A DNA stretch of 39,039 nt from Candidatus Indicimonas acetifermentans (GTDB taxonomy: Bacteria > Gemmatimonadota > Gemmatimonadetes > Palauibacterales > KS3-K002), in NCBI GenBank assembly GCA_947581815.1, contig CANPVX010000005.1:1-39039 (forward strand), given 5' to 3'. Every line of letters starts with the position of its first letter. The stretch's first letter is position 1. Below, one piece after another: positions 5,133 through 37,229 of this stretch. A model generated the notes under the pieces. That model did no database searches, was not told the DNA's origin, and saw only the letters and a list, made by a program, of their open reading frames with translations. The translations under genes were made by a program, and so were the position numbers.

Positions 5133-5190
5133 CCCTTAGTGAGACGTCGAATTCGTCCGCATCGTTAAGAGCCCTCTCGATATCAAATAG

Positions 5191-5204: not shown

Positions 5205-5224
5205 ATCGATCGCCCGGGTACCCC

Positions 5225-5255: not shown

Positions 5256-5304
5256 GCCTGGAGTCAGGGTGGATGGCGCTAGATCGCCGGTGAAGGGAGG
5301 AGCG

Positions 5305-6411: not shown

Positions 6412-7484
6412 ATCGCCTTGACCTTGACGCCGAGGCCTCCAGGGTAGATCACCGAGCGAAGCGACTCACCGTAGTGCTTGACGAGCTGAAGAGCCTCTCC
6501 GACACCTTCTAAGCCGAAGCGATCGGTCACAAGATCCTCGACCTCGATTGCACCGCCGGCAAGCAGTTCGAGCGCCTCGCGCGTATCGGTCGGTCCGGCC
6601 GAGTAGCTGTGTGTGATCGTGACCTCTTTGAAGTAGAGATCGTGCGGACGATAATCGACGGAGGCCTCAGGCGATGTGGGCGTGAAGACGAGCACAGTCG
6701 CGCCAGGTGCTACGTGGGCCAGCGTGCTCTCGATCGCCGCGGCGGAACCCGGCCCGACGATTACGTTCTCGGGGCCCCAACCATCGGTCGCCTCCGCCAG
6801 CTTGTCCCCAAAATCCGCCGCGCTAGGGTCGAGCGCCAGATCGGCGCCCGTTCGCTGCGCGTAGTCCCGCCGCACCGCCACGGGGTCGCTGGCGATGATC
6901 GGTTGAGCGCCAAAGTGACGGGCGAGGCGGATGTTGAGCAGCCCCATCGGGCCGGCACCGAGAACCCACATGCTCTCACCCGGATCGAGGGCGAGTTTCC
7001 CGAAAGCTCGCAGGCTACAGGCAAGCGGCTCGATGAAAACGCCCGCCTCATCGGAGATCTCGTCGGGCAGCTTGAGCACGTCGAGCCGAACGATCTCCGC
7101 CGGCACGCGCGCGAACTCGGCGAAACCGCCGGGGTCCAGAGCGGTCTCGCGGAAACGTCGGCACGAGGTGTAGAAGCCGCGCTGGCAGGCCCTGCAATTC
7201 ATGCACGGAACGTGGTGATGGAAGAACACCCGATCTCCGACCTCTAGGTCGACTTCCATCTCTGGCGTCACAGTCTCGACAACGCCCACCGGCTCGTGGC
7301 CGAGCACCGCGGGGAGCTTGCGCTTCACGTACCAGCCCAGAGTGTCGCTCGAGCATACGCCGCACACGCTGATCCGCACTCCGATGTCGCCGGCGGATAG
7401 CTCTGGCACGGGCGCCTCTTCCACGCGTACATCGTCGAGAGCATAGGCTCGGGCCACACGCATGGTTCGAGGCTGAGAGCTCAT
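6408..7484 (-). CDS. Zinc-dependent medium-chain dehydrogenase (second of pair)
   Basis: This 358-residue MDR-family dehydrogenase has the catalytic-zinc Cys in VCGVCSSD, then GHEPVGVVE, and the structural-zinc lobe C-x2-C-x2-C-x7-C (CMNCRACQRGFYTSC). The nucleotide fold begins at WVLGAGPMGLLN, and IIASDPVAVRRDYAQ follows the second strand. MDR enzymes oxidise alcohols or polyols with NAD(P). It overlaps the upstream paralogue by 4 bases and the downstream cupin by 4 bases. The substrate is not recognisable. A sugar or polyol is likely from general similarity to sorbitol/threonine dehydrogenases. Confidence 0.9.
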   Translation of the reverse strand: MSSQPRTMRVARAYALDDVRVEEAPVPELSAGDIGVRISVCGVCSSDTLGWYVKRKLPAVLGHEPVGVVETVTPEMEVDLEVGDRVFFHHHVPCMNCRACQRGFYTSCRRFRETALDPGGFAEFARVPAEIVRLDVLKLPDEISDEAGVFIEPLACSLRAFGKLALDPGESMWVLGAGPMGLLNIRLARHFGAQPIIASDPVAVRRDYAQRTGADLALDPSAADFGDKLAEATDGWGPENVIVGPGSAAAIESTLAHVAPGATVLVFTPTSPEASVDYRPHDLYFKEVTITHSYSAGPTDTREALELLAGGAIEVEDLVTDRFGLEGVGEALQLVKHYGESLRSVIYPGGLGVKVKAI

Positions 7485-8503
7485 GGGACGATGGCGACTT
7501 TCACCGCTGCACGCCGCCGCACCAGATCGAAGGCGCCGGTGAGATCGTCAAGCGGCCTTCGGTGGGTGATCAGGGGGTGCGCATCGATCGCCCCGCCACA
7601 GATCAAGTCCCAGGCACGGCGAACCGTTGCCGGCGTGTAATGAAACGCTCCCTTCACGTCGATCTCATCGTAGTGAATGCGCTCGGTCTGAAACGAAACC
7701 GTCGCGTCCTTCTCACAGCCTCCGAAGAAGAGCACCTCTCCACCCCGGCGCGCCAGCGCTAACGCCTCATGCCACGCTTCCGGACGGCCTACACATTCCA
7801 CTACCGTGTCGGCGCCGAGACCGTCGGTCAGCGCCTCCACCGCGGAGCGAGGGTCGGACTCTCGCGAATCGATCACCGCGTCGGCGCCGAGAACACGTGC
7901 CGCCTCTAAGCGCCGGGGGTGTCGCCCGATGACGATCGTGCGCCCGGCGCCGCCCACGCGAGCGACCTGCAGGAAGAGAAGCGTGATCGGCCCGTCGCCC
8001 AAGAAGACGACCGTGCGGTCCCCAGACAGATCGACGCGGCCTGCGCCGTGGACCACGCAAGCCAGCGGTTCGAGAACCGCCGCCTGCGCATCGCTGACCG
8101 CTTCGGGGATGCGAAACGCGTTTCGCCTCACTATGTGGCGGGGGAGAAGCAGGTACTCCCCGTATGCTCCAAGAGCCACATCCTCGAAGAGGTGAAGGCA
8201 AAGACTCTCCTCGCGCTTCAGGCAGTAGACGCAGTCTCCGCACGGCGCCGTGGGCGTCGCCACGATCCGATTGCCGGTTTCGAACTCGCGCACTCCCTCT
8301 CCGACAGCCGCGACCCTCCCTGCCCATTCGTGACCGAACGGCCCGGACGGCAGTCGAGCGTGTCCCCGCTCCAGCATCTTGAGATCGGTCCCGCAGGTGA
8401 GCGCCAGGTTGACGCGCGCCAGCACCTCGCCAGTCGAGGGCTGCGGGATCGCCACCTCGCGCAGCTCGGTCTCGCCCACTCGAACGAGGTACTGGACCCG
8501 CAT
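7481..8503 (-). CDS. Zinc-dependent medium-chain dehydrogenase (first of pair)
   Basis: It has the catalytic-zinc motif LTCGTDLKM, GHEWAGRVAAVGEGV and the structural lobe C-x2-C-x2-C-x7-C (CGDCVYCLKREESLC). The nucleotide-binding glycines are FLGDGPITLLFLQ, slightly altered from GxGxxG. I chose the ATG giving MRVQYLVRVGE because this matches the usual family start. Longer versions from 8545 or 8593 are open, but none of the three has a good ribosome site. At about 340 residues the length is typical. It heads a three-gene overlapping operon with a second MDR enzyme and a cupin, probably a short oxidation pathway for one substrate. Confidence 0.88.
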   Translation of the reverse strand: MRVQYLVRVGETELREVAIPQPSTGEVLARVNLALTCGTDLKMLERGHARLPSGPFGHEWAGRVAAVGEGVREFETGNRIVATPTAPCGDCVYCLKREESLCLHLFEDVALGAYGEYLLLPRHIVRRNAFRIPEAVSDAQAAVLEPLACVVHGAGRVDLSGDRTVVFLGDGPITLLFLQVARVGGAGRTIVIGRHPRRLEAARVLGADAVIDSRESDPRSAVEALTDGLGADTVVECVGRPEAWHEALALARRGGEVLFFGGCEKDATVSFQTERIHYDEIDVKGAFHYTPATVRRAWDLICGGAIDAHPLITHRRPLDDLTGAFDLVRRRAAVKVAIVP

Positions 8504-8662
8504 CCTAGCGCGATCCACGGACGCCTCAGAATCCAAGTTGCCCATACCAGTCCAAGCTAGACTCCCGAGCACCGATCGTAAATCCAGGCTCATTCTGCAA
8601 AGCTAGGTACCGCTGCAACGGCTCGCGGCCAAGCGTCCCACAGACGAGGGATGAGCGGCCGC

Positions 8663-11227
8663 TCAAGGAACGCGCAGGTCGATCTTTCTGAGGCTGTTCG
8701 AGTTTCCCACCACCGTCACGGAGCTGAAGGCCATGGCTCCTTCGGCGATGGCCGGATGCAGAAAGCCCATCATTGCTAGCGGTATCGCGATGACGTTGTA
8801 GAAGTAAGCCCAGAAGAGGTTCTGGCGAATCTTGCGGAACGTAGCAACCGAAAGTTGGATCGCTCTTACGACCCCGCTCAGCTCCCCACCGACGAGGATG
8901 ATATCCCCCGCTTCGATCGCGACGTCGGTTCCCGTGCCGATGGCGATCCCCACGTTCGCCTGCTTCAGCGCCGCCGCATCGTTTATTCCGTCGCCCACCA
9001 TGGCCACGATGCGCCCGTCCGCCTGCAGTCTGCGGATCTGCTCTACCTTGTCGCCGGGGAGCACTCTGGCGATTACACGGTCGATACCCACATCTCGCGC
9101 AATCGCTCGCGCCGTGGACTCGTTGTCTCCGGTCAGCATGACCGTCTCCAGCCCCATGCCCTCGAGCGCGGCGATCGCCGACTTGGACTCCGCCTTCAGT
9201 CGATCCGCTACCGCTATCACGCCAGCCACTCGCCCGTCCACGGCAACGAATGCCGCCGTCTTCGCTTCGTTCTCGAGCCGTTCGATCGCACCGCTGAGCG
9301 CGCTGACATCGACGTTCGATTCTTCCATCAGACGCGTGTTGCCCACAACAATCGGGTGGCCGCCAACGCGGGCTCGAATGCCGAGACCGCTGACCGCCTC
9401 GAAGTCTGTGGCCGCCTCGAGCTCGATCCCCCGCTCACGGGCATGCGCCACAATCGCTTCTCCCAACGGGTGCTCGGAGCCCGACTCCGCGCCCGCAGCG
9501 TGACTCAACAGGACCTCCTGGTCCCACCCGGCCGCCGGGACCACATCGGTGACCCCGGGCTCGCCCCGGGTGATCGTACCGGTCTTATCCATCACTATGG
9601 TATCGACTTCTCGCAGCGTTTGAATCGCCTCGCCGCTTCGGATCAAGATCCCATTCGAGGCACCAATCCCCGTCCCCACCATGAGCGCCGTCGGAGTGGC
9701 GAGCCCGAGGGCGCAGGGGCAAGCGATCACCAAGACGGCGACTGCGGCGAAGATCGCCAGGGAGATGGGGCCCAAATCGGGATCGACCCATGGCAGGAAT
9801 CCTGAAGCCCATACCGCGATGCCATGGAAGGAGCTCGGGAAAGCGATCCAGGCCACCAGCGTGAGGGCCGCGAGCCCCAGGACAGCGGGCACGAAGACGG
9901 CGGTCACCCGCTCAGCGAACTCCTGGATGGGAACCTTGGTGCCCTGCGCTTCTTCGACCATGCGAATCACGTGGGCGAGGAACGTGTCTTCGCCGACTCC
10001 GGTGGCCCGCACTTTCAGGGCGCCATCCTTGTTGATCGTGGACCCGATCAGCGGATCACCGAGGCGTTTCAAGACGGGCATCGACTCACCGGTCGCTAAC
10101 GACTCGTCAACCATGCTGCGGCCATCGACCACCTCGCCATCGGTGGGGATCTTCTCGCCGGGCCGCACGATCATCACGTCGCCCACAACGATATCCTCCA
10201 AAGCCACCTCGATCTCTTTTCCATCCCGTTCTACTTGCGCCGTCTTCACCTCGAGCGACAGCAGTTTTTGGATCGCCTGCGAGGTGCGGCCGCGTGCCTT
10301 GGTTTCTACGTATCGACCGGTGAGGTGGAAGGCCATGATCATGGCCGCGACGCCCGAATAATTCAGCAACTTCGGCAGAACCCCCAGATCGTGCCCGACC
10401 GTCACGAAGCCCGTGATGAACGCGACCGACGCTCCCAGGGCGATGAGCGTGTCCATGGTAGGCGTGCGGCGGAGCAGGCTGCGATAGCCACTGGAGAGTG
10501 TCGGCCAACCCCAGATCAATACGACCGGGGCGGCGAGGAAGATGATGCCGAGGTCGAAGACGATATCGGAGGGCCACTTCCGACCGAACACCATTTCCGG
10601 GACCATCCATATCATGATCGGCAGCGTGAGCACCCACGACTGGAACATGCGGCGCTTCGCGTCGACTACTTTCAGCTGATCCCTTTCCAGCTTCTCCCTC
10701 TCACGCACACGGCGGTCCTGCGCGTCATCTAATAAGCCCCCCGTGACCTCGTAGCCCACTGCCTCGATCGCACGCTGGAATTCTTCGAAGTCTACCTGGC
10801 TCGGATCGTATTCCACGGTCGCCCGCCCGGCGGCAAGGTTCACACTCGCCTGCCGCACCCCGGAAAGCTCTTCCAGTGCACGCTCGACCGCGTTGACGCA
10901 CGAGGCGCAGTGCATCCCCTCCACTTCCAGCGTTCGCTTACGCGAGGCGCGGCGGGATGCTCCCGTCACCTCGTAACCGATCTCCCCTACAACGCGCTTG
11001 AATTCGTCGATCCCGACAAGTTTCGGGTCGTACTCGACCGTCGCCCGCTCCGTGGCCAAGTTCACGCTAGCCTCGCGCACCCCCGGCAGCCGCTTCAGCG
11101 CGCGCTCCACAGCAGTCACGCACGAGGCGCAATGCATCCCCTCGATTTCCAGCGCCTCTTTCGCTGGACCGGCCGAGCCGTCCTCGGCCGGTGCCACTGC
11201 GACGGTCCGATCACCGCGGTGCTTCAT
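8663..11227 (-). CDS. copA: Copper-translocating P1B-type ATPase
   Basis: The 854-residue ATP-driven Cu(I) exporter of the inner membrane has two N-terminal HMA domains, each with GMHCASC. These are followed by the membrane region and the actuator motif LATGESMPV. The metal-binding CPC is in VIACPCALGLATPTA (around residue 502), the phosphorylation site DKTGT is near 546, SEHPLGEAI follows, and VGDGINDAAAL is the hinge. The C-terminal helices carry YFYNVIAIPLAMMG and AMAFSSVTVVGNSNSLR, the Cu(I)-type residues. The start is preceded by AGGA. It lies 42 bases after csoR on the same strand, so it is very probably co-regulated by copper. Confidence 0.97.
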   Translation of the reverse strand: MKHRGDRTVAVAPAEDGSAGPAKEALEIEGMHCASCVTAVERALKRLPGVREASVNLATERATVEYDPKLVGIDEFKRVVGEIGYEVTGASRRASRKRTLEVEGMHCASCVNAVERALEELSGVRQASVNLAAGRATVEYDPSQVDFEEFQRAIEAVGYEVTGGLLDDAQDRRVREREKLERDQLKVVDAKRRMFQSWVLTLPIMIWMVPEMVFGRKWPSDIVFDLGIIFLAAPVVLIWGWPTLSSGYRSLLRRTPTMDTLIALGASVAFITGFVTVGHDLGVLPKLLNYSGVAAMIMAFHLTGRYVETKARGRTSQAIQKLLSLEVKTAQVERDGKEIEVALEDIVVGDVMIVRPGEKIPTDGEVVDGRSMVDESLATGESMPVLKRLGDPLIGSTINKDGALKVRATGVGEDTFLAHVIRMVEEAQGTKVPIQEFAERVTAVFVPAVLGLAALTLVAWIAFPSSFHGIAVWASGFLPWVDPDLGPISLAIFAAVAVLVIACPCALGLATPTALMVGTGIGASNGILIRSGEAIQTLREVDTIVMDKTGTITRGEPGVTDVVPAAGWDQEVLLSHAAGAESGSEHPLGEAIVAHARERGIELEAATDFEAVSGLGIRARVGGHPIVVGNTRLMEESNVDVSALSGAIERLENEAKTAAFVAVDGRVAGVIAVADRLKAESKSAIAALEGMGLETVMLTGDNESTARAIARDVGIDRVIARVLPGDKVEQIRRLQADGRIVAMVGDGINDAAALKQANVGIAIGTGTDVAIEAGDIILVGGELSGVVRAIQLSVATFRKIRQNLFWAYFYNVIAIPLAMMGFLHPAIAEGAMAFSSVTVVGNSNSLRKIDLRVP

Positions 11228-11269
11228 TCTTTCCTAGTCCTCGCTCTCCGGGAATCGTAGAGTCTTCGT

Positions 11270-11581
11270 CTAGCGCACATAGCGGTAAAGGAGGTCCAAT
11301 AGTTCCTGGCGAACGTCGGCCGACGCCTCGCCCCCCTCGGCGATGGCGTGTGCGGCGCAGCGCTCGAGGTGATTCGCCAGCAGCTCTTTCTCGGCGCCGC
11401 GCAGCGCCGAGTGCACAGCCGCGAACTGCTGCAGAATATCGGGGCAGTAGCGCTCATCTTCGACCATGCGCTGAATGCCCTCGACCTGGCCTCGTATGCG
11501 CGCCAGCCGCTTGAGGATGTCGTGTTTGGTCTTGTCGGCGATCCCCATGGCGTAGGGGATTTCATTCTTTGTGCGAGCCAA
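11270..11581 (-). CDS. csoR: CsoR-type copper-sensing repressor
   Basis: This 103-residue all-helical repressor of the CsoR/RcnR (DUF156) family has the signature RLARIRGQVEGIQRMVEDER. The Cu(I) ligands are Cys46, His71 and Cys75, with the same spacing as Cys36, His61 and Cys65 of M. tuberculosis CsoR. I chose the TTG start because it has GGGAGG 6 bases upstream; an ATG 11 codons in has no such site. A matching operator and promoter lie just upstream, and copA follows, so it should repress its own operon until Cu(I) binds. Confidence 0.95.
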   Translation of the reverse strand: MARTKNEIPYAMGIADKTKHDILKRLARIRGQVEGIQRMVEDERYCPDILQQFAAVHSALRGAEKELLANHLERCAAHAIAEGGEASADVRQELLDLLYRYVR

Positions 11582-11596
11582 TGGAGTCCTCCCTAA

Positions 11597-11616
11597 TACT
11601 GTACCGGGGTATAGTA
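11597..11616. promoter_or_regulatory. CsoR-type operator
   Basis: TACTGTACCGGGGTATAGTA is an imperfect palindrome that closely resembles the B. subtilis copZA CsoR operator (TACCC-type arms around a G-rich centre ending in GGTA-like bases). It overlaps the -10 element of the csoR promoter by 4 bases and lies just upstream of the ribosome site, as expected for a repressor that blocks RNA polymerase. Confidence 0.75.
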
Positions 11617-11641
11617 TAACGCGCCCCTAACACCTCGTCAA
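11613..11641 (-). promoter_or_regulatory. Sigma70-type promoter of csoR-copA
   Basis: On the minus strand TTGACG and TATACT are separated by exactly 17 bases. The predicted start falls inside the CsoR operator, giving a leader of about 25 bases to the TTG start. Confidence 0.75.
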
Positions 11642-11672
11642 GGCCCTCACCTCCACCATGTTGCCTAAAACG

Positions 11673-12230
11673 TCAGAGCGCAGATGAAGGTCGACGACTC
11701 GCCATCGAGGCTGCCACCGTATAGTCCACGATGGCAATACCCCCGGAGACGCCCACAGCCACGACGCAGTAATCGATCAGATCGGGCGCGAAGAGCAAAA
11801 CGAAGAGGGTGACCATTTGCAGGAACGTCACGACCTTCCCGCCCAACCTGGCCCGGTCCGGCAAATTGACGTTCGCGATCTTGGCGAAGATGAACGCGGC
11901 CCCCACGTACACATCCCGAGCCATCAGGATCGCGAACTGCGTCCACCCGAGGTAGGGTCCAGGAATAAACGATGCCATCACCACCAGGATGAAGAGCTTG
12001 TCGAAAAGCGGATCGATGACGGCGCCTGATTTGGTTCCAAGGCCGAAACGGCGCGCCACCCAGCCGTCGAGGGCATCCGTCATCGCGCCGGCCGAGAGCA
12101 GAACGCCCCGCCAGACTTGCCCATCGACGACAAGGAATGCGGCGGCGATCGGGAGTCGCAGCATCGAGATCATGTTAGGCAGGAAAACGAAAAGGCTCTT
12201 GTACGTTTTTCCCTGCGAGCTCCGATCCAT
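11673..12230 (-). CDS. CDP-alcohol phosphatidyltransferase family protein
   Basis: This integral membrane enzyme of phospholipid synthesis transfers the phosphatidyl group of CDP-diacylglycerol, or a related headgroup, to an alcohol. The family motif D-x2-D-G-x2-A-R-x8-G-x3-D-x3-D is complete: TDALDGWVARRFGLGTKSGA, then VIDPLFDK. Five or six membrane segments follow (LFILVVMASFIPG, VVTFLQMVTLFVLLFAP and others). I chose the ATG one base after the previous stop; a GTG 9 bases earlier is also possible. The length and motif fit PgsA-like enzymes, but the headgroup cannot be told. It is the last gene of the mqnA operon. Confidence 0.88.
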   Translation of the reverse strand: MDRSSQGKTYKSLFVFLPNMISMLRLPIAAAFLVVDGQVWRGVLLSAGAMTDALDGWVARRFGLGTKSGAVIDPLFDKLFILVVMASFIPGPYLGWTQFAILMARDVYVGAAFIFAKIANVNLPDRARLGGKVVTFLQMVTLFVLLFAPDLIDYCVVAVGVSGGIAIVDYTVAASMASRRPSSAL

Positions 12231-12231
12231 G

Positions 12232-13155
12232 CTAGCCACTCAACTCACGCACGATCGAGCGGAGCGAGTTGGGTTCGATGCCAAACGTATCGAGGAGCGC
12301 ATTGCCTTCGCCCCGAATCACATTCTCCTCGAGCAGCATGGCCAGTTGGTCAGAGTTGATGGGGGTCGGCAACCTCCAATTTGACGCAATATCGACCAGC
12401 GGCTGCACGAGCGTCAGCGGGACGTGGAACCGCGTACGATGAAAGCCGAGCTCCTCCGATATGATCTCGAGGATTCGGTTATAGGTAAGTTTGTGAGGAC
12501 CGGCGATCTCCCACGCCGCATCCGGGACGTTCTCTCGTTCTACGGCCAACCCAATCGCCTCGGCCACATCTCGAACATCGACCGGCTGCAATCGGTACTG
12601 ACCGTCGCCGATAACAGGCGTGAACGGAAGCATCCGAACCATACGCAACAGCATCCGCGTGAACTCACCGCCGAGCCCCAGGATCACCGATGGTCGCATG
12701 ATCGCGTACGAGATTCCCGAGCGCCGCACGGCCTCTTCCCCCTCGTACTTGGTTCTTTGATACGCCGTGCCATCCAGCCGGGCCCCCAGCGCGCTCATAT
12801 GAACGATGCGACGAACCCCCGCCTGGCGAGCAGCCTCCACCACCTGGATCGTCCCATGCGTGTGCACGCGCTCGAAGGTCACTTCCGGCGGCCTCTCCTT
12901 GATGATGCCCACCAGGTGCACCACCGTTTCGCAGTCGTCGAGCGCGCCTGCGATCGTCTGCTGCCGCGTTATGTCGCCTACGACCAGGTCCGCTCCAAGA
13001 TCACGCAGCCCAGCGGCACGCCCATCATCGCGATGGCGAACGAGCGCTCGCAACGCGTGCCCTCGCTCGGCCAGCCGCCGCGCGACGACCCGGCCCACAA
13101 ACCCGGTGCCGCCCGTTAGAAAGATTCGCTGGCGCTGCCCCCGCCTCCCGCTCAT
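12232..13155 (-). CDS. NDUFA9-like atypical SDR / NAD(P)-binding epimerase-family protein
   Basis: This 307-residue Rossmann-fold protein starts at the ATG just before RIFLTGGTGFVGRVVARRLA, the TGGTGFVG nucleotide-binding loop. Later features are LVVGDITRQQTIAGALDD, VVHLVGIIKER and the YxxxK-like YQRTKYEGEEAVRRSGI. The pattern, including RPSVILGLGGEFTRMLLRMV and the INSDQLAMLLEENV tail, fits the atypical SDR subgroup related to the complex I accessory subunit NDUFA9. A longer open frame upstream overlaps the Nudix gene and is not needed. The 14-base gap after the Nudix gene and one base before the next gene indicate an operon. The substrate is unknown. Confidence 0.85.
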   Translation of the reverse strand: MSGRRGQRQRIFLTGGTGFVGRVVARRLAERGHALRALVRHRDDGRAAGLRDLGADLVVGDITRQQTIAGALDDCETVVHLVGIIKERPPEVTFERVHTHGTIQVVEAARQAGVRRIVHMSALGARLDGTAYQRTKYEGEEAVRRSGISYAIMRPSVILGLGGEFTRMLLRMVRMLPFTPVIGDGQYRLQPVDVRDVAEAIGLAVERENVPDAAWEIAGPHKLTYNRILEIISEELGFHRTRFHVPLTLVQPLVDIASNWRLPTPINSDQLAMLLEENVIRGEGNALLDTFGIEPNSLRSIVRELSG

Positions 13156-26899: not shown

Positions 26900-26938
26900 C
26901 CTGACTGCGTTCTGTGGGCGGCTCAGCAGCGCCGCAGC

Positions 26939-26944
26939 GGAGGT
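26939..26944 (+). promoter_or_regulatory. Ribosome binding site that fixes the small-subunit start at TTG
   Basis: GGAGGT lies 5 bases before TTG at 26950. A GTG 36 bases earlier is in the same frame but has no such site, and the extra residues (MGGSAAPQRRYH) are not family-like. Confidence 0.8.
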
Positions 26945-26949
26945 ATCAC

Positions 26950-27450
26950 TTGATCGAGGCCCTCAGGCTCACCGTCAACGGTGACACCCAGGAGATCGGC
27001 GTCCCCAGCCACTACACGTTGCTCGAAGCTCTGCGCTACGTACTCGGATACACCGGCTCGAAACAGGGGTGCGACAAGGGCGACTGCGGGGCGTGCACCG
27101 TTCTCCTCGACGGCCAGCCAGCTCTTTCCTGCATTCTGCCCGTCCAGGAAGCCATCGATCGCGAGGTCACGACGGTAGAGGGACTTGCGGGGCCCGACGG
27201 ACCTCACCCTCTACAGGATGCTTTCGACCTCACCGGCGCGGCGCAATGTGGTTTCTGCACGCCGGGCATCCTGATGTCGGCCGCCAGCCTGCTGCAGCGA
27301 AACCAGAGTCCGTCCAACCATGAGATCCGTGAGGCGCTATCCGGCAACCTCTGTCGCTGCACAGGCTACACTAAGATCTTCGATGCGGTGGAGATCGCCG
27401 CCCGCGCTTTGCGCGAGAACCGCCCCGCCGCGGAAGTGGTCAGAGCATGA
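26950..27450 (+). CDS. hcrC: Molybdo-enzyme [2Fe-2S] small subunit, 4-hydroxybenzoyl-CoA-reductase-like
   Basis: The 166-residue small subunit of a xanthine-dehydrogenase-family enzyme carries two [2Fe-2S] clusters. The plant-type one is in KQGCDKGDCGACTVLLDG and PALSC; the second is in QCGFCTPGILMSA and GNLCRCTGYTKIFDAV. It passes electrons between the FAD and molybdenum subunits. It starts at TTG, fixed by a strong ribosome site, and its stop overlaps the large-subunit ATG by 4 bases. The symbol follows the subunit naming of 4-hydroxybenzoyl-CoA reductase because of the cluster loop in the FAD subunit; the true substrate is not proven. Confidence 0.9.
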   Translation: MIEALRLTVNGDTQEIGVPSHYTLLEALRYVLGYTGSKQGCDKGDCGACTVLLDGQPALSCILPVQEAIDREVTTVEGLAGPDGPHPLQDAFDLTGAAQCGFCTPGILMSAASLLQRNQSPSNHEIREALSGNLCRCTGYTKIFDAVEIAARALRENRPAAEVVRA

Positions 27451-29885
27451 AGCTGGAAGACTTCAGAGGGCGGCAAGCCGATTCGGCGGCGAGCGAGGAG
27501 GAGCTGCGCGAGGCACTGGAGCGCGAGTTCCAAGTCATAGGTCGGCGCCTACGCCGGACGGACGGCATGTCCAAGTCCACCGGGCGAACGCTCTACGCCG
27601 ACGATATCACGCTCCCGGGGATGCTCCATGCCAAGATCCTGCGGAGCCCCCACGCTCATGCCCTCATCAAATCGATAGATGCATCTGCAGCACTCGAACT
27701 GCGTGGCGTGCACGCGGTAGTGACGGGCGCCGATATGCCCGTTCCCTACGGGATAATTCCGTGGACCCGCGACGAGTATCCGCTGTGCGTCGATAAGGTG
27801 CGCTACATCGGGGACGGCGTCGCCGCCGTCGCCGCCATCGATGAGGACACGGCTAACCGGGCCCTCGACTCGATCGAGGTCGAATATGAGGTGTTGCCCC
27901 ACTTTCTCGATCCCGAGGAAGCGTTGGAGAGGTCCGACACGCCGATCCACGAGCCGCACAAGCCGGGGCAGAACGGGAATATCTCCAAGAAGGTCCACCT
28001 CGAGTTCGAGGATGTAGAGAAGGGTTTGGCGGATTCGGACGTCGTGATCGAGGGTGAGTACTACTTCGAGGGGACGACCCACACCCCGATCGAGCCACAC
28101 TGCGCGATCGGCTACTTCGATCCTTCGGGCAAGCTCACCGTCTGGTCGGCGACCCAGGTGCCCCACTATCTGCACCGGGAGTTGGCCCGGGTGCTCGAGC
28201 TCGACGTCGCCAAAGTCAGGGTCATTCAGCCGCCGGTGGGCGGCGCCTTCGGCGGAAAGTCGGAGCCGTTCGACCTCGAGTTCTGTGTGGCAAAGCTCGC
28301 GATGATCACAGCGCGCCCGGTGAAGATCCTCTACACGCGCGAAGAGGTCTTCTACGCTCATCGCGGCCGGCACCCGATGCTCATGCATTACAAGACGGGC
28401 GCCGATCGTCATGGGCGAATCAAGGCCGTCGATGCTACGACGATCATCGATGGTGGGGCCTATTCATCCTTCGGCCTCGTCACCACCTACTATTCCGGGC
28501 AGCTGATCACCGCGCCCTACCAGATGGAGTCGTATCGCTTCGATTCCACGCGTGTCTATACGAACAAGCCCTGCTGCGGCCCAAAGCGAGGCCACGGCTC
28601 GGTGCAGCCTCGCTTCGCCATCGAAGTCCAGCTCGACAAGATCGCCGAAGCTCTGGACATCGACCCCATCGAGCTGCGGCGCCGCAACTTCATCGGCACC
28701 AACACGCGAACCATCAACGAGCTGCGCATCACTTCCAACGGCTTTCTCCAATGCCTCGAAGAGGTCGAGAGGGCCAGCGCCTGGAAGAGCAAGCACCGCA
28801 AGCTGGACTACGGCCGCGGGGTCGGCGTCGCCGGTTCGTGCTACATCTCGGGCACTAACTATCCCATCTACCCGAACGACATGCCGCAGTCGGCGGTCCA
28901 GCTCCAGGTCGATCGCTCGGGCCGCGTGGCAGTGTTCGCCGGCGCGTCGGAGATCGGCCAGGGTTCGGATTCAATGCTCGCCTACATCGTCGCCGAAGAG
29001 CTCGGCGTGCCGCTCGACTACATAAGAATCCTCTCGGCCGACACCGACCTGACACCGGTGGATCTGGGCGCCTACTCGTCACGCGTCACTTTCATGTGCG
29101 GCAACGCGTGTATCGATGCGGCCAGAAAGATCAAGAAGTTGGTCTGCGAAGCGGTGGCCGAGGCGTGGAATTGTAAGGCGAAAAGCATCATGCTCGCCGG
29201 CGGCTGGGCCTTCAAGGCAGAGGACACGGCCCAGAAGATGCCGATCTCGGAAGCGTTCAACTTGGCCGAGGCGAAGTTCGGCGCGTTGGGCGCCACCGGA
29301 TCCTACAACACCCCCAAGGACATCCACGGCACCTATCGCGGCGGCACGATCGGCTCTTCTCCCGCTTTCTCGTTCACCGCCCACGTGGCCGAAGTCGATG
29401 TGGACCCGGAGACGGGGTTCGTCGAGATCCACAAGATCTGGATCGCCCACGACTGCGGCCGCGCGCTCAATCCGCTGCTCGTGGAGGGGCAGATGGAGGG
29501 ATCCGTCTACATGGGGGCGGCGGAAGCCATAATGGAGGAGCACATCTTCAAGGAGACCGGCCTCCATAACGCACCGTCGCTGCTCGACTACAAGATACCG
29601 ACCAGCCTCGACACACCCGAGATGCAGTCCATCATAGTGGAATCCATCGATCCGGAGGGGCCCTACGGCGCCAAGGAGGCGGGCGAAGGTCCTCTGCACC
29701 CGTCCATCCCCGCCATAGCCTGCGCCATATACGACGCCGTCGGCGTGCGCCTGGACCGGCTGCCCTTCTCTCCGCCGCGGGTCTGGGCGGCGATTCGAGA
29801 ACGCGGGCGCCAAGAAGAGGCAGGCGAACTGTCGCCGTGGAAGAGTCCGCCGATCAGCGTGCCGCTCCCCGCCACGGGCGATTAA
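27447..29885 (+). CDS. hcrA: Molybdo-enzyme large (Mo-cofactor) subunit, 4-hydroxybenzoyl-CoA-reductase-like
   Basis: The 812-residue molybdopterin-binding subunit shows the family's domains in order: the N-terminal RTDGMSKSTGRTLYADD and GMLHAKILRSPHAHALIKSI, then PPVGGAFGGKSEPFDLEFC (about 260-280). KRGHGSVQPRFAIE follows at about 380, where xanthine and CO dehydrogenases have RGFG or related sequences, and GASEIGQGSDSML comes later. GAKEAGEGPLHPSIPA holds the likely catalytic Glu747. There is no CO-dehydrogenase active-site CSFR motif, so it is not a form I CO dehydrogenase. RGHG fits HcrA-type subunits as far as I recall them. The substrate is inferred from the FAD-subunit loop. Confidence 0.9.
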   Translation: MKLEDFRGRQADSAASEEELREALEREFQVIGRRLRRTDGMSKSTGRTLYADDITLPGMLHAKILRSPHAHALIKSIDASAALELRGVHAVVTGADMPVPYGIIPWTRDEYPLCVDKVRYIGDGVAAVAAIDEDTANRALDSIEVEYEVLPHFLDPEEALERSDTPIHEPHKPGQNGNISKKVHLEFEDVEKGLADSDVVIEGEYYFEGTTHTPIEPHCAIGYFDPSGKLTVWSATQVPHYLHRELARVLELDVAKVRVIQPPVGGAFGGKSEPFDLEFCVAKLAMITARPVKILYTREEVFYAHRGRHPMLMHYKTGADRHGRIKAVDATTIIDGGAYSSFGLVTTYYSGQLITAPYQMESYRFDSTRVYTNKPCCGPKRGHGSVQPRFAIEVQLDKIAEALDIDPIELRRRNFIGTNTRTINELRITSNGFLQCLEEVERASAWKSKHRKLDYGRGVGVAGSCYISGTNYPIYPNDMPQSAVQLQVDRSGRVAVFAGASEIGQGSDSMLAYIVAEELGVPLDYIRILSADTDLTPVDLGAYSSRVTFMCGNACIDAARKIKKLVCEAVAEAWNCKAKSIMLAGGWAFKAEDTAQKMPISEAFNLAEAKFGALGATGSYNTPKDIHGTYRGGTIGSSPAFSFTAHVAEVDVDPETGFVEIHKIWIAHDCGRALNPLLVEGQMEGSVYMGAAEAIMEEHIFKETGLHNAPSLLDYKIPTSLDTPEMQSIIVESIDPEGPYGAKEAGEGPLHPSIPAIACAIYDAVGVRLDRLPFSPPRVWAAIRERGRQEEAGELSPWKSPPISVPLPATGD

Positions 29886-29890
29886 GAAAC

Positions 29891-30892
29891 ATGCTGCGAC
29901 TACACCCCTATCGGTACCACAGGCCGAAAGAGCTGGGGGAAGCCCTCGAGCTGCTGAGGGAGCACCGCGGCGACTCGATGCCCATCGCGGGCGGCACGGA
30001 CCTCATGCCCAACATGAAGCACGGTCTCTACACACCGAGCCACCTGGTGGCGCTCAAAGGAGTCGAGGAGCTGCATGTAATTGAAGAGCGCGACGGCGAG
30101 CTCGTCATCGGCGCCGCCGAAACGCTGACGAGGGTCGCGAGCGATCCCCTGATCAAGCGGCGCCTGCCCGGATTGGCGCGGGCGGCGGAAGGTATCGCGC
30201 ACCCGATGATTCGCAACATCGGTACGATCGGTGGTAACGTCTGCCTGGATACGCGCTGCACGTACTACAATCAAACGTACTTCTGGCGTGAGGCTCTCGG
30301 GTTCTGCCTAAAGAAGGACGGCGACGTCTGCTACGTGGTCAAAGGCGGGAGCCGCTGCGTCGCGGCCCATTCGGCTGACACGCCCCCCATGCTCATGACG
30401 CTGGGTGCGACCGTGGACCTCGCCACCGCCGACGGCGCTCGTTCCGTGCCCTTGACGAAGTTTTTCACAGCAGACGGAATCTGGAACACCGTGCGCGAGC
30501 CCGACGAGCTCGTCATCAGGGTGAGAGTACCGATCCCCTCGCCGCGGCTCCGCACCAGCTACCAGAAGGTACGGGAGCGCAAGTCGGTGGACTTCCCTCT
30601 CTTGGGTATCGCTCTCGCAGTCGAGATCGACGATTCGCACTTGATCGAATCGATCTCGCTCGTGGTCGCTGGACTCGGCGCGAAACCACGCGTGGTCGGA
30701 GGGCTGGACAAAATCGCCGGCGGGCAGCGGCTGACACCCGACATCATAGAAGAGGTCGCGCGGCGAGCACACCGGCAGTGCAATCCGCTCGACAACCTCA
30801 TCGTCGACACCGACTGGCGCCACGCCATGGTAGCCGTTTACGTACGGCGTGCGTTCGAGGAAGTCCTGGGCCAGCCCCTGGCGGCAGCGTGA
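29891..30892 (+). CDS. hcrB: Molybdo-enzyme FAD subunit with extra [4Fe-4S] loop, HcrB-like
   Basis: The 333-residue FAD-binding subunit starts MLRLHPYRYHRPKELGEAL, then PIAGGTDLMPNMKHG (FAD-binding loop) and NIGTIGGNVCLDTRC. After the second FAD motif comes an insertion with Cys123, Cys139, Cys147 and Cys156. This is the same spacing (15, 7 and 8 residues between) as Cys122, 138, 146 and 155, which hold the extra [4Fe-4S] cluster in Thauera aromatica 4-hydroxybenzoyl-CoA reductase. Ordinary xanthine and CO dehydrogenases lack this loop. In that enzyme ferredoxin electrons enter there for a very low-potential reduction. The tail includes SYQKVRERKSVDFPLLGIAL. The ATG lies 5 bases after the large subunit. 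Confidence 0.92.
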   Translation: MLRLHPYRYHRPKELGEALELLREHRGDSMPIAGGTDLMPNMKHGLYTPSHLVALKGVEELHVIEERDGELVIGAAETLTRVASDPLIKRRLPGLARAAEGIAHPMIRNIGTIGGNVCLDTRCTYYNQTYFWREALGFCLKKDGDVCYVVKGGSRCVAAHSADTPPMLMTLGATVDLATADGARSVPLTKFFTADGIWNTVREPDELVIRVRVPIPSPRLRTSYQKVRERKSVDFPLLGIALAVEIDDSHLIESISLVVAGLGAKPRVVGGLDKIAGGQRLTPDIIEEVARRAHRQCNPLDNLIVDTDWRHAMVAVYVRRAFEEVLGQPLAAA

Positions 30893-31733: not shown

Positions 31734-32651
31734 TTAGTTGTCCCGCCCGCGAAATTCGAACGCCCGGGTGTGCATCTGCTCCGGCATCGTCCCCGTCACC
31801 GTCTGGTTCCGGTTCTGACGCCGAATCTCGAACGAGACTTCCTCGTCGACGTCATACGAGCGCAGTATGCGCATCGCATGGCTGGGGCTTCCAGCCTCGC
31901 GATCGTCGATCTTGAGGATGATGTCCCCCGCCTTCAATCCGAGACCGCTCTCCTCCGGGACGCTGACGACCAACACGCCCTCGTCGACTCCAAAGTACTC
32001 TCCCAGATCCGAATTCAGAGAGACCAGTTGCAGTCCGGGGAGAGCCGAGCCCACGCGCACCGCGAATGACTCCGGTCCGAGGAAGGTCAAGTCGGGCCCA
32101 TGAAGCTCAACCCGCGGCAGCTCGCGAAGCCGATCGACCAGAACCTCCACTCGCGGAACGCTGAAGACGTTGTCGAACTCGCCGGCCTCCACCTCGACGG
32201 TGAGCGTCTCCGAACCGCGACGCAACTCGACCGCCACCGTTTCGCCAACCTCAAGATCGCCGGCCCGCTCGAGCAATCTCATCGCGGGTCCCGACTCGTC
32301 CTCGTCGTAACTCTCGGAGCCGCGCAGCAGGCTCTCGCCATCCAGTGTCATGATGATGTCACCAACCTGAATCCCAGCCTTTTCGGCGGGTCCGCCCTCC
32401 ATCACTCTCCGAACGACCGCACCGATACCATCGGTTTTCGCGTCGGCTGCCGTATTGACCCATATCCCAAGCCGCGCGCGTCCACCGAACCAGACGTTGT
32501 CCGAAAATCTCCCCACCCTAAAACGTTCGGGGCCAAAAAAGCTATACTCGCTACATTTGCACTCTTTGTCGTCCTCGTCCTGCGCATACGCCGGCGAACT
32601 AGCGCCCAGCGCCGCCAAAGCGCCCAAGACCATCAGCGAACCCCACTTCAT
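31734..32651 (-). CDS. Secreted protein with two PDZ domains
   Basis: The 305-residue product has a signal peptide (MKWGSLMVLGALAALGASSP ending AYAQ). One PDZ domain follows around VVRRVMEGGPAEKAGIQVGD, then IIMTLDGESLL. A second lies around LVVSVPEESGLGLKAGDIIL, then KIDDREAGSP. No protease catalytic triad or zinc motif is visible, so it is PDZ-only. GAGGAGGAG precedes the ATG. It follows an anti-sigma gene on the same strand with a 95-base gap. PDZ domains bind C-terminal ends of unfolded envelope proteins; a sensing role with the upstream pair is speculative. Confidence 0.85.
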   Translation of the reverse strand: MKWGSLMVLGALAALGASSPAYAQDEDDKECKCSEYSFFGPERFRVGRFSDNVWFGGRARLGIWVNTAADAKTDGIGAVVRRVMEGGPAEKAGIQVGDIIMTLDGESLLRGSESYDEDESGPAMRLLERAGDLEVGETVAVELRRGSETLTVEVEAGEFDNVFSVPRVEVLVDRLRELPRVELHGPDLTFLGPESFAVRVGSALPGLQLVSLNSDLGEYFGVDEGVLVVSVPEESGLGLKAGDIILKIDDREAGSPSHAMRILRSYDVDEEVSFEIRRQNRNQTVTGTMPEQMHTRAFEFRGRDN

Positions 32652-32666
32652 CGAATCTCCTCCTCA

Positions 32667-32678
32667 GGTCGAACGACC
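32667..32678. repeat. Palindrome GGTCG-AA-CGACC upstream of the PDZ gene
   Basis: Perfect 5-base arms lie in the 95-base gap, just before the ribosome site of the PDZ gene. The minus strand also has TTGACA 7 bases further upstream, but no -10 hexamer at the right spacing. It may be a regulatory site or chance. Confidence 0.3.
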
Positions 32679-32746
32679 CAAAATTGTCAAACCTACCGCC
32701 TTTGCGTACTCGACCGACCTCTACCTGTACCTGGAGCGGCCTGCCC

Positions 32747-33388
32747 CTAGCGCCAGCCGTCGTCCTGTTGCCAGCCCTCCGCCTGCTGCCCCAGCTGTAC
32801 CCCCACCAACACTTCCAACGCTTCGACTCGCTGCTGCCACAGGTCACGCACGAGCCGCCCATCCACACCCCCAGCGCGGGTCTGCACCAACGCCTCGTCA
32901 ATTAACAGCAACCGCTCCTCCAGAACAGAAACCGCCAGCGCTTGACGCGCGCCGAGCACCTGACGCTCCGGTACGTACGTAGCAAGCAGCGACTCGAGTT
33001 CGCTCGAACGGTCGATCATCGGCGCCAGCTGCGCGCTCAACCGACCTTCTTGGCTCGGTTCCGCTACGACCGCCGGTCCAACTCCCTCTCCCGATCCGCG
33101 CAGCATCAGAATACTCCCCAGCGCCGCCGCCACCAACCACCCCGCGCCCATGCCAACCCAGCGTCGGCGCTGCCGCCAACGCAGCCTTCCCACGATCGCC
33201 GGCCAGAGATCGGTCTGGGGCCTCAACCCCGGAAGCCGACGCAACTGGTCACGGACCCTGCGGAGACGATCCAGTTCCCCGCGGCAACGATCGCACGACT
33301 CCACGTGGGACCGCGACGCGTCACCGCCCTCGCCATCTCGTACGGCGAGCAGCTCGCTCATCTCTAAGTGTCGAATCTCGTCCGTCAT
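32747..33388 (-). CDS. Zinc-finger anti-sigma factor (second pair)
   Basis: The 213-residue protein has a ZAS motif HVESCDRC (H-x3-C-x2-C) near residue 28 and a membrane segment (WVGMGAGWLVAAALGSILML) around residues 78-97. The long extracytoplasmic helical tail includes VLGARQALAVSVLEERLLLI and a Trp/Gln-rich end (QQAEGWQQDDGW). Its start overlaps the sigma stop by 4 bases. It should hold the upstream ECF sigma at the membrane until an envelope signal releases it. Confidence 0.85.
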   Translation of the reverse strand: MTDEIRHLEMSELLAVRDGEGGDASRSHVESCDRCRGELDRLRRVRDQLRRLPGLRPQTDLWPAIVGRLRWRQRRRWVGMGAGWLVAAALGSILMLRGSGEGVGPAVVAEPSQEGRLSAQLAPMIDRSSELESLLATYVPERQVLGARQALAVSVLEERLLLIDEALVQTRAGGVDGRLVRDLWQQRVEALEVLVGVQLGQQAEGWQQDDGWR

Positions 33389-33921
33389 GCGTGCAACTCC
33401 CGCAATCGCTGGTGAGCCCTCGAGAGTTGTGACTTCGAGAAACTCGCCGTTTTGCCCATCATCTCACCGATCTCCTGATGTGTATACCCTTCAACCTCAT
33501 GCAGCCACAGCACCGTGCGCGCTACCGGTGAAAGCTGCTCGAGAGCCGCCTCCAGCTCGACCGGCACCGTCGGCTCCGGCGGCGCCGTCGCCAGCGAGCC
33601 CACAGCGAAGCCATCGACGTCCAGCGACTTCGCAGCACGAACCCGCTCGCGCCGCAGGTGCATCAGCGCCTTGCTCACCGTCACCTGCCGGATCCAACCC
33701 CACAGCGACCCTTCTCCACGATACTTGGTGATCGAACGGCAGATTTCCAGGAATGTATCTTGCATCACATCCTGGGCGTCCGCCTCGTTCCGGCAGATCC
33801 GCCGCGCTAGCGTGAAAACAGCGCTCTCGTAGGAGCGGTAGACGAGTTCCAGCGCCTCCTCGTCTCCGTCTCCCGCACGCGAGACCACGGCGCTTCCAAG
33901 CGCCAAAGCATTCCCTCCCAT
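33385..33921 (-). CDS. ECF RNA polymerase sigma factor (second)
   Basis: The 178-residue ECF sigma factor has region 2 (LELVYRSYESAVFTLARRIC, DAQDVMQDTFLEICRSI, GSLWGWIRQVTVSKALMHLR) and region 4 (LEQLSPVARTVLWLHEVEGY, then THQEIGEMMGKTASFSKSQL). It is paired with a ZAS anti-sigma and probably a PDZ protein. A GGAAC stretch lies at 33968-33972 on the minus strand, but no partner -10 element is found at the usual spacing. The start chosen is the first ATG; no clear ribosome site precedes it. Confidence 0.93.
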   Translation of the reverse strand: MGGNALALGSAVVSRAGDGDEEALELVYRSYESAVFTLARRICRNEADAQDVMQDTFLEICRSITKYRGEGSLWGWIRQVTVSKALMHLRRERVRAAKSLDVDGFAVGSLATAPPEPTVPVELEAALEQLSPVARTVLWLHEVEGYTHQEIGEMMGKTASFSKSQLSRAHQRLRELHA

Positions 33922-34098: not shown

Positions 34099-36018
34099 AT
34101 GGGGCAGGAAGTTAAAGCCGAGCGCGAGCCAGAAGCGATCCGGGCCTTCACCCGAGCCATCCTGCAGGACCTCCACGCACTCGAGCGCATTCTCGCGGAC
34201 GGACTGATCGAGTCGGACGTTCGCCGAATCGGCGTCGAGCAGGAGCTATTCCTGGTGGACCGGAGCCGGGCGCCGGCCCCGCGCGCCATGGAGGTGCTGG
34301 AGCGGCTGAAGAAAGACAGCAGCTTCACCACGGAGCTGGCAAAGTTCAACCTGGAGATCAATCTAGAGCCTCTGAGGCTGGAGCGGGATTGTTTCCGGGT
34401 GCTGGAGGGCGCCGTCAGAAGCAAGGTTGAAGCGGCGCGCGCCGCGGCGAAGGCGGAAGATGCGGACGTCTTGCTCGCCGGCATCCTGCCCACGCTCAAC
34501 AAATCAGATCTTTCGCTCGACAACATCACGCCCAGGCAACGCTACTACGCGTTGAACGAAGCGGTGAACAGGATGAGAGGCGGGCCTGGGCGGCTTCGAA
34601 TCCAAGGGATCGATGAGCTTGACGTCGAATACAACTCCGTGATGTACGAAAGCTGCAATACCAGCTTTCAGGTTCACCTTCAGGCGGGGGCGGAAGAGTT
34701 CGCGCACATGTACAATGCCGCCCAGGCGGTGTCGGGACCGGTTCTGGCCTCCATGGTGAATTCCCCTCTCCTCTTTGGGCGACGTCTGTGGGCCGAGACA
34801 CGAATCGCACTGTTCCAGCAATCGGTCGATACTCGAGGAGCGATGCCGCATCTGAGGGAAAGAAGCCCGCGGGTGCGGTTCGGCGAGCACTGGGTAAACG
34901 GCTCGGTGTTGGAGCTGTTCCAAGAAGATCTGAGTCGCTTCTGGGTCCTGCTCAGTGCCGACGTGGAGGAGGATCCGTTCGCGAGGCTGGAAGCGGGGGA
35001 GATTCCGCTGCTCAGAGCCCTGCAGCTCCACAACGGCACCGTTTACAGATGGAATCGCCCCTGCTACGGGATCAGCGATGGGCGACCGCACCTCAGGATC
35101 GAATGCCGTTACATGCCGTCCGGACCGACGATCGTCGACGAGACGGCGAACGCCGCGTTTTGGGCGGGCTCGGTTCTGGGCCTTGCCCAGACATATAGGA
35201 ACATACCCGAGCTGATCGAGTTCGACGAGGTGAAGGGCAACTTCCTGGCGGCGGCACGCCACGGGCCGTCCGCGGCGTTCAGCTGGCTCGACGGCGAGAC
35301 GGTCGGTGCTAAGGAGTTGATCCTCGAGCGGCTGCTGCCGATCGCCCGCGAAGGACTGCAGGCGGCGAGCATCGACGACGCCGATATCGATCACTACTTG
35401 GGGATCATCGAGACACGGGTCGCGACCGGGCAGACGGGCTCGCAGTGGCTGTCTCGGTCGCTCGGTGGATTCAAGGACGAGGGTACCCGCGGCGAAAGGC
35501 TGGCCGCCCTCACCGGTGCGATGGTCGAACGCCAGAAGGATGGTAGGCCGGGTCACGAGTGGCCCTTGGCGAGGCTCGGGGAGGCCGGCGGGTGGCAGGA
35601 CAAATACCTGCGCGTCGAGGACTACATGACCACCGACCTCTTCACTGTTCACGAGGATGAGCTCGTGGACCTGGTGGCCTTCTTGATGGACCAGAAGCAC
35701 ATCCGCCACGTGTTGGTCGAGGACGATTCACACCGGATCGTGGGTCTCGTATCGTACCGCTCCCTGCTGAGGCTGCTGATTCGGGGCCGCGCGAGCGAAT
35801 CCGATACAGTGCCGGTAGGAGAGGTCATGGTGAGAGACCCCATCACGATCCCGCCAGAGACTTCGACGATCGAAGCCATCGAGCTCATGAGAGACAACCG
35901 GGTTTCCTGTCTCCCCGTCGTGAAGGACGGCAAACTGATCGGCATGGTGAGCGAACGCGACTTCCTGCCGATGGCGCGACAACTCTTAGAAGAAAGGTTG
36001 AAAACACGTGACACCTGA
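34099..36018 (+). CDS. GCS2-family carboxylate-amine ligase fused to a CBS pair
   Basis: The first 500 residues are a glutamate-cysteine-ligase-2-like domain: RRIGVEQELFLVDRS with the conserved Glu near the start, then FNLEINLEPLRLE, NTSFQVHLQAG and RIECRYMPSGPTIVDE. The last 135 residues are two CBS domains: DYMTTDLFTVHEDELVDLVA, HIRHVLVEDDSHRIVGLVSY, then VMVRDPITIPPETSTIEAIE and SCLPVVKDGKLIGMVSERDF. GCS2 enzymes join a carboxylate to an amine with ATP. CBS pairs bind adenosine nucleotides and often control an attached enzyme. The stop overlaps the next start (TGATG), so both are coupled. The substrate is unknown. Confidence 0.9.
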   Translation: MGQEVKAEREPEAIRAFTRAILQDLHALERILADGLIESDVRRIGVEQELFLVDRSRAPAPRAMEVLERLKKDSSFTTELAKFNLEINLEPLRLERDCFRVLEGAVRSKVEAARAAAKAEDADVLLAGILPTLNKSDLSLDNITPRQRYYALNEAVNRMRGGPGRLRIQGIDELDVEYNSVMYESCNTSFQVHLQAGAEEFAHMYNAAQAVSGPVLASMVNSPLLFGRRLWAETRIALFQQSVDTRGAMPHLRERSPRVRFGEHWVNGSVLELFQEDLSRFWVLLSADVEEDPFARLEAGEIPLLRALQLHNGTVYRWNRPCYGISDGRPHLRIECRYMPSGPTIVDETANAAFWAGSVLGLAQTYRNIPELIEFDEVKGNFLAAARHGPSAAFSWLDGETVGAKELILERLLPIAREGLQAASIDDADIDHYLGIIETRVATGQTGSQWLSRSLGGFKDEGTRGERLAALTGAMVERQKDGRPGHEWPLARLGEAGGWQDKYLRVEDYMTTDLFTVHEDELVDLVAFLMDQKHIRHVLVEDDSHRIVGLVSYRSLLRLLIRGRASESDTVPVGEVMVRDPITIPPETSTIEAIELMRDNRVSCLPVVKDGKLIGMVSERDFLPMARQLLEERLKTRDT

Positions 36019-37229
36019 TGCTGCTCGCTCTTGGGAGGCGATGGAAGAGGAGGAAGGGGGGGGGGGCACTAGAGCGCGTTATCGGTCGCTTCACGGATGA
36101 TGCCGCCGGCCCAACATTCATCTGCATAGCAGGGCTTCACGGAAACGAGCCTTCCGGAGTCCAGGGACTCAAGAGAGTTTTCAAGACGCTCCAGCAAGCG
36201 AAACCGTCTTTGAACGGTGAGTTCGTTGGCCTCGCTGGTAACCTCTCCGCCCTCGCCCAGCACCGACGCTTCATCGACTACGACCTGAATCGATGTTGGT
36301 CCGCAGCGACCGTCGAGGACCACGCTCCCGAGTCCGGCTTCGCTCCCACCACAGGCGTCGAGGCAAGAGAGCAGCGGGAGCTCTTGGCCGAACTAGAGCG
36401 CGTCTTCGATCGCGCGCGCGGCGAAGTCTACGTCCTGGACCTGCACTCCACCTCCGGCGACGGCGCCCCGTTCGCCGTGCTCAACGATACGCTTCGTAAC
36501 CGTGAATTCGCCCTCGCCTTCCGCGTGACCATAGTTCTCGGAGTCGCGGAGAACCTCGGCGGCACGCTCATGGACTACATCAACGACTTCGGGCATGTGA
36601 ACATCGGCTTTGAAGCCGGCAAGCACGACGATCCCGCCACGATCGATAACGCGGAAGCGGCGGTATGGGTCGGTCTGGCGGCGACCGGATGCGTTGCTAG
36701 CGGTCTGCCCGAAGTGCACCGCTCCAGGAGCCGTCTCACTCAAGCCAGAGGACCCCTGCCGCGCGTCGCCGAAGTCCGCTACCGCCACGCCATCGCGAGG
36801 GCAGACGGCTTCAGGATGGAGCCCGGTTTCTTAAACTTTCAGCGGATCACCACCGGCCAGCTGCTGGCGCGCGACCGCCGTGGCGAGATCCGTTCGCGCA
36901 AATCGGGGCGCATGTTGATGCCGCATTACCAAGAACTCGGGGAGGATGGCTTCTTCGTGATCCGGGAATTCCGACCACATTGGCTCGCCGCCTCAGCTCT
37001 GCTGCGACGACTGCGCTTCGACGCCATCGTTCATTGGCTTCCCGGCGTCAGGCGCCACCCTAAGTATCCCGGTACACTCATCATCGATCGCCGAATCGCT
37101 CGCTGGCGAGCCCTGGATCTCCTTCACCTGCTCGGCTTTCGAAAGCAGCGGGCAATAGGAAACGTTCTATTGATCAGCCGTCGCGCGCGACCCCGGCCAC
37201 CGAGGCCGAGGCGCAGACCAAGCGCATGA
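36018..37229 (+). CDS. AstE/AspA-family zinc deacylase
   Basis: This succinylglutamate-desuccinylase/aspartoacylase-type zinc carboxypeptidase has AGLHGNEPSG (His41 and Glu44 as zinc ligands), DYDLNRCW, VLDLHSTSGDG (third ligand, near 143) and IGFEAGKHDD, whose Glu is the likely general base. The 403-residue length exceeds AstE because of a C-terminal half without recognised motifs and an Arg/Pro tail. It is coupled to the GCS2-CBS gene. The start is uncertain: an 11-G run sits 38 bases after the ATG, and another ATG at 36041 would be in frame only if the run were one base shorter. Such enzymes cleave N-acyl amino acids. Confidence 0.85.
   Translation: MLLALGRRWKRRKGGGALERVIGRFTDDAAGPTFICIAGLHGNEPSGVQGLKRVFKTLQQAKPSLNGEFVGLAGNLSALAQHRRFIDYDLNRCWSAATVEDHAPESGFAPTTGVEAREQRELLAELERVFDRARGEVYVLDLHSTSGDGAPFAVLNDTLRNREFALAFRVTIVLGVAENLGGTLMDYINDFGHVNIGFEAGKHDDPATIDNAEAAVWVGLAATGCVASGLPEVHRSRSRLTQARGPLPRVAEVRYRHAIARADGFRMEPGFLNFQRITTGQLLARDRRGEIRSRKSGRMLMPHYQELGEDGFFVIREFRPHWLAASALLRRLRFDAIVHWLPGVRRHPKYPGTLIIDRRIARWRALDLLHLLGFRKQRAIGNVLLISRRARPRPPRPRRRPSA
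36056..36066 (+). repeat. G11 homopolymer near the start of the deacylase gene
   Basis: Eleven consecutive G encode Gly residues 14-16 of the product starting at 36018. The tract is preceded by GAGGAGGAA. Confidence 0.9.

Follow-up and report, generated by a model that had tools for sequence, protein, structure and literature searches.

Two overlapping genes of the window, that is, of the whole 39,039-nucleotide stretch of Candidatus Indicimonas acetifermentans DNA analysed here, were predicted to encode a carboxylate-amine ligase of the GCS2 fold with a C-terminal CBS pair and a zinc amidohydrolase of the AstE/AspA type. The two genes recurred side by side in genomes of two phyla, and the residues expected of both active sites appeared intact. 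The pair is interpreted, with moderate confidence, as a small-molecule make-and-break module, in which a CBS-regulated gamma-glutamyl ligase would form a conjugate and the hydrolase would cleave it.

The open reading frame of the ligase (34099..36018, + strand) codes for a 639-aa protein with Pfam matches to GCS2 and CBS and with a homologue in 48 of the 200 genomes analysed from the window's phylum, Gemmatimonadota. The hydrolase reading frame (36018..37229, + strand) codes for a 403-aa protein assigned on the basis of Pfam PF24827 and of the PDB matches of its family profile. Both were located where the sequence-only reading had placed them, and the GCS2, CBS and AstE/AspA families that it had named were borne out by Pfam. 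The gene overlap that it had described was also present, the TGATG at 36016..36020 (+) comprising the ligase stop codon TGA (36016-36018) and the hydrolase start codon ATG (36018-36020). Divergently to the ligase, the region 31734-33921 (- strand) encodes an ECF sigma factor, a 213-aa protein without a match and a two-PDZ protein, and the unmatched protein beside the sigma factor could be an anti-sigma factor. Three genes in the region 26914-30892 (+ strand) encode the Fe-S, Mo and FAD subunits of a molybdenum hydroxylase, which was closest to 4-hydroxybenzoyl-CoA reductase, yet under the curated cut-offs.

The match of the ligase to the Pfam GCS2 model was modest (PF04107, E = 9.5e-7, 28.9 bits against a curated cut-off of 21), and a GCS2 match at E 0.001 was detected in 31 of 34 homologues; a CBS match was found in 30 of the 34. 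A profile built from these 34 homologues aligned with the YbdK-type GCS2 profile over 334 columns (profile-profile comparison, probability 96.8%, E = 2.2e-10); no significant match was obtained when E. coli YbdK alone was taken for the comparison. The same 34-homologue profile found no significant GCS2 structure in PDB for the GCS2 part, and because of this the family was considered a divergent GCS2 subfamily. Structure models of the window protein and of its relative from L016 (pLDDT 37 and 33) were too poor for a structure search. The fold, the GhExE and other motifs and the order of elements are common to the ligase and the YbdK-type enzymes, but the catalytic region is longer (about 495 aa versus about 370) and the CBS pair is an addition. 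As the protein scored far below every curated cut-off of the NCBIfam YbdK, EgtA and GshA models (best 33.1 bits versus 332), its substrate is not transferable from the known families.

The sequence-only reading had made its proposal depend on the retention of ATP- and metal-binding residues in the GCS2 domain, and these were found to be in place. In the GhExE signature, known as the Mg/ATP signature (PMC2588565), the residues G45, E47 and E49 of G45-V-E47-Q-E49 (34231..34245, +) were invariant in the 34 homologues and aligned with GIEEE of YbdK-type GCS2. Two other motifs, F-Q191-V-H193-L-Q (34666..34683, +; Q191 and H193 invariant) and L-R333-I-E335-C-R337 (35092..35109, +; R333, E335 and R337 invariant), aligned with HVHV and LEFRVCD of canonical GCS2, respectively, and N84 and E86 were likewise invariant in the homologue alignment.

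The CBS part of the ligase was recognized with high significance (PF00571, E = 1.5e-28) in two stretches corresponding to two repeats, and each was scored for the ribose motif Gxx(S/T)xxD. In repeat 1 (residues ~503-560; 35605..35778, +), identified by PDB CBS matches, the aspartate of this motif is replaced by Ser or Ala in most homologues. In repeat 2 (residues 573-623; 35815..35967, +), identified by Pfam, the motif reads GMVSERD and the aspartate was kept in 27 of the 30 CBS-bearing homologues. It is plausible from these sequences that at most one putative nucleotide site, the second CBS half-site, is intact. In a tree of 75 ligases, all CBS-fused proteins formed one group (support 100/99), so the fusion probably arose once.

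The hydrolase matched the Pfam AstE_AspA_cat model (PF24827, E = 3.8e-16), as did all of its 26 homologues, and the family profile matched succinylglutamate desuccinylase and aspartoacylase structures in PDB. It shares with AstE and AspA the catalytic signature HxxE...DLNR...DLH...E. By analogy with these enzymes, H41 and E44 of the motif H41-G-N-E44 (36138..36149, +) and H143 of the third-ligand motif D141-L-H143 (36438..36446, +) are putative zinc ligands. The motif D89-L-N91-R92 (36282..36293, +) presumably binds the substrate carboxylate, as we know it from AspA and AstE, and on the same grounds we take E199 (36612..36614, +), located in E-x-G-x-H, to be a candidate catalytic glutamate. 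The H41-G-N-E44 motif and the residues D89, N91, R92, D141, H143, E199, G201 and H203 were invariant in the 26 homologues. The protein did not reach the NCBIfam cut-offs for aspartoacylase (46.9/180) or for the two desuccinylase models (42.6/170 and, for the AstE equivalog of arginine catabolism, 33.0/305.65), and its partner is a ligase and not an arginine-degradation gene as for AstE.

A survey of co-occurrence had been proposed in the sequence-only reading, which took a pair rarely found together as evidence against itself. Of the 200 genomes analysed from the window's phylum, 48 carried the ligase-CBS protein, 48 the hydrolase subfamily and 40 both; the two genes were adjacent in 37 genomes of 18 genera, and in all 37 cases the matched regions lay about 150 bp apart or less. 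At the genus level (93 genera), the ligase was present in 23, the hydrolase in 22 and both in 20. The Fisher p values for this phylum (4.6e-26 over genomes and 3.5e-15 over genera) are indicative only due to the relatedness of the genomes. A second phylum was searched via L016, a Rhodothermia MAG and the only relative identified by name, which itself has no hydrolase gene; the label Rhodothermota came from the tree tool. In 148 Rhodothermota genomes, the ligase-CBS protein was found in 41, the hydrolase in 26 and both in 25, with the genes adjacent by coordinates in 23 (Fisher p = 1.7e-16 by genome, likewise only indicative given the kinship of the genomes). In both phyla, most of the paired genes were direct neighbours in the same orientation, and in the tree of the 75 ligases the pairing with the hydrolase was seen in several branches of the CBS-fused group. 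Both genes were present in 40 of the 48 ligase genomes of the window's phylum and in 25 of the 41 of Rhodothermota; the pairing is frequent, contrary to a rare association, and it is not due to chance.

The association was uneven. Only 9 of the 74 hydrolase genomes of both phyla lacked the ligase, a rarity which fits a hydrolase acting on something ligase-dependent. The ligase-CBS gene occurred without the hydrolase in 24 of 89 genomes (about 27%), and therefore a reversible cycle is not obligatory. The proposal of the sequence-only reading was upheld in part, namely in its families, operon-like overlap, catalytic residues and frequent pairing and in one CBS half-site whose ribose-binding motif is intact; cleavage of the ligase's own product by the hydrolase, ATP/AMP binding by the CBS pair and a storage role of the product are putative. 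In the neighbourhood comparison, no third gene accompanied the pair as widely; the next most widespread cluster of neighbours covered 7 genera and was not adjacent. Some lineage-restricted arrangements were also observed. In members of 4 genera, the hydrolase is followed downstream by a response regulator containing an HD domain (L018 9178-10356, L054 9035-10243); in 4 genera, the ligase is directly preceded by a nitroreductase-family gene in the same orientation (L018 4777-5937, L052 8023-9153); and in one genus (g5, L060-L063) the AstE subfamily is kept without the ligase-CBS gene.

Hydrolases were also encountered beside ligase relatives devoid of the CBS pair. In a separate Rhodothermota group of such ligases, a remote AstE_AspA_cat protein was encoded directly downstream in 9 of 10 genomes. 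In a third CBS-less group, family f4 of the window's phylum, a gene for Peptidase C26, which has the fold of gamma-glutamyl hydrolases, was located nearby in 4 of 5 loci. The presence of different amide hydrolases beside related ligases suggests a gamma-glutamyl-type amide product. A YbdK-type GCS2 gene was also present in two of the f4 loci with C26, and the peptidase may serve this neighbouring ligase instead. The clusters L043 1798-7434 and L044 3386-7446 (both + strand) hold a YbdK-type GCS2, a Peptidase C26 and a CBS-less ligase together. Matches on plasmids comprised three CBS-less actinobacterial ligases, one remote haloarchaeal match and, for the remainder, mostly CBS-only proteins, and in the two of the three actinobacterial loci that were examined, no hydrolase was found beside the ligase. 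The search of viral contigs revealed no relatives.

Known thiol pathways were considered as an explanation of the pair. Since gamma-glutamylcysteine ligases occur among GCS2 family members, the ligase could produce gamma-Glu-Cys, either as a step towards glutathione or as a bulk thiol in itself, with the hydrolase recycling it. This is very unlikely, as 195 of the phylum's 200 genomes, including that of the window, carry BshC of the bacillithiol pathway, and the glutathione-synthase ATP-grasp domain was absent from the window's genome, with strong matches limited to 5 of the 48 ligase genomes. A general glutathione or bulk-thiol role was rejected because of this near-universal BshC and rare glutathione synthase. 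A marginally fainter chance was given to the pair replacing EgtA and EgtC in ergothioneine biosynthesis, where it would form gamma-Glu-Cys and trim the sulfoxide intermediate. In L095 (G308; 4821-12319, - strand), EgtB, EgtD, two tandem ligase-CBS copies and AstE are encoded in one same-strand run. Moreover, a strong EgtD match was found in 20 of 41 ligase genomes of Rhodothermota versus 5 of 107 others, and of these 20 genomes 18 had no other GCS2 and none had EgtC over the cut-off. However, the EgtB proteins of two such genomes resembled the Chloracidobacterium type (485-487 bits) rather than the mycobacterial one (133-151 bits), and the Chloracidobacterium-type EgtB prefers cysteine (PMC10903977), so that gamma-Glu-Cys, EgtA and EgtC would not be needed. 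In the window's phylum, EgtD was not associated with the ligase (24/48 versus 53/152, p = 0.064), a canonical GCS2 adjoins EgtD, e.g., in G069, and the window's genome, which is about 92% complete, lacks EgtD. Ergothioneine biosynthesis was rejected as the general role on these grounds; for operons such as that of L095 alone it is possible. Tandem ligase copies also occur in G319.

The reading of the pair as a make-and-break module implies the following course of events. With ATP and Mg, the ligase would activate a carboxylate by phosphorylation, the gamma-carboxylate of glutamate being the most likely one, and would couple it to the amine of a small molecule, which is probably an amino acid. 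The zinc hydrolase of the AstE/AspA type, whose start overlaps the ligase stop and which may be co-transcribed with it, would cleave this conjugate, if the substrate is shared, or a later product in which the glutamyl group is retained. One adenine nucleotide is probably bound by the second half-site of the CBS pair, which would tune the ligase to the energy state in one direction or the other. In favour of this reading are the GCS2 fold and catalytic motifs of the ligase, the invariant zinc- and carboxylate-binding residues of the hydrolase, and the pairing in two phyla; the genomes in which the ligase occurs alone count against it. The broader proposal, namely a widespread gamma-glutamyl conjugate with a dedicated pair making and breaking it and with synthesis switched by CBS-bound adenine nucleotide, so that the conjugate would serve two or more bacterial phyla as an energy-gated signal or store, is more tentative and seems rather doubtful.

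The main rival of the make-and-break module is a pathway of capping and removal, in which glutamate would be placed on an amine by the ligase as a cap, the capped molecule would be modified by the products of genes located elsewhere, and the hydrolase would uncap it, unlike in a simple store or cycle. This possibility, rather unlikely at about one chance in four, has a precedent in EgtA/EgtC (PMC9103826) and agrees with partner hydrolases which vary by lineage while their amide-hydrolase role is constant; genomes with the ligase only could employ another hydrolase. However, a conserved middle enzyme was not found in the compared neighbourhoods. It is also conceivable, but improbable, that the two are housekeeping enzymes unrelated to each other, which have stayed in one operon through common descent and are not metabolically coupled. 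Gene order can persist by descent, the genomes are not independent, and in the Rhodothermota locus L097 the pair is located between priA and scpB, with the same gene-size pattern in L096 and L098-L101. Against such an explanation stand the correlated gain and loss of both genes over the 93 genera, the change of flanking genes between lineages while the pair stays together, and the remote CBS-less ligase relatives which also adjoin a hydrolase gene.

Ligases and hydrolases acting on the same type of bond are known from other systems. In putrescine utilization, PuuA, a gamma-glutamyl ligase of the glutamine-synthetase fold and type, acts together with the C26-type gamma-glutamyl hydrolase PuuD. 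The window pair is likewise an adjacent and co-occurring ligase and hydrolase, but is composed of GCS2-CBS and AstE. EgtA/EgtC also consists of a GCS2 ligase and a hydrolase removing gamma-glutamate (PMC9103826); EgtC is an Ntn-hydrolase, whereas the partner in the window is a zinc AstE/AspA enzyme, encoded in a genome without EgtD. The PafA/Dop system of Pup ligase and depupylase comprises a GS-fold amide ligase related to GCS2 and a partner reversing the bond (PMC2588565, PMC7947786); unlike the window pair, it has a protein substrate, Pup, and the same fold in both partners, with no CBS and no zinc hydrolase. In described neighbourhoods, uncharacterised carboxylate-amine ligases adjoin a thiol peptidase or an Aig2 cyclotransferase (PMC2588565), again a ligase beside an enzyme cleaving gamma-glutamyl bonds, but neither a fusion to CBS nor a partner of the AstE/AspA type is described there. 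The sequence-only reading had considered a reversible, energy-sensed modification or store of an amino-acid conjugate as not known to be described. The literature searched gave no description of the CBS-GCS2/AstE pair, a mention in the amidoligase survey of Iyer et al. 2009 being possible, but an amide ligase beside a hydrolase as such is described (PMC2588565; EgtA/EgtC, PMC9103826). The logic of the pair is already known; its novelty lies in the fusion of the ligase to CBS and in a partner of the AstE/AspA type.

The results suggest that AstE/AspA-type enzymes may partner gamma-glutamyl ligases, a role that was not found described. As a compact two-gene unit, the pair makes its substrate and any nucleotide control accessible with two purified proteins. 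The joint retention, in two phyla, of a zinc amidohydrolase and a ligase carrying its own CBS pair points to an unassigned small-molecule pathway.
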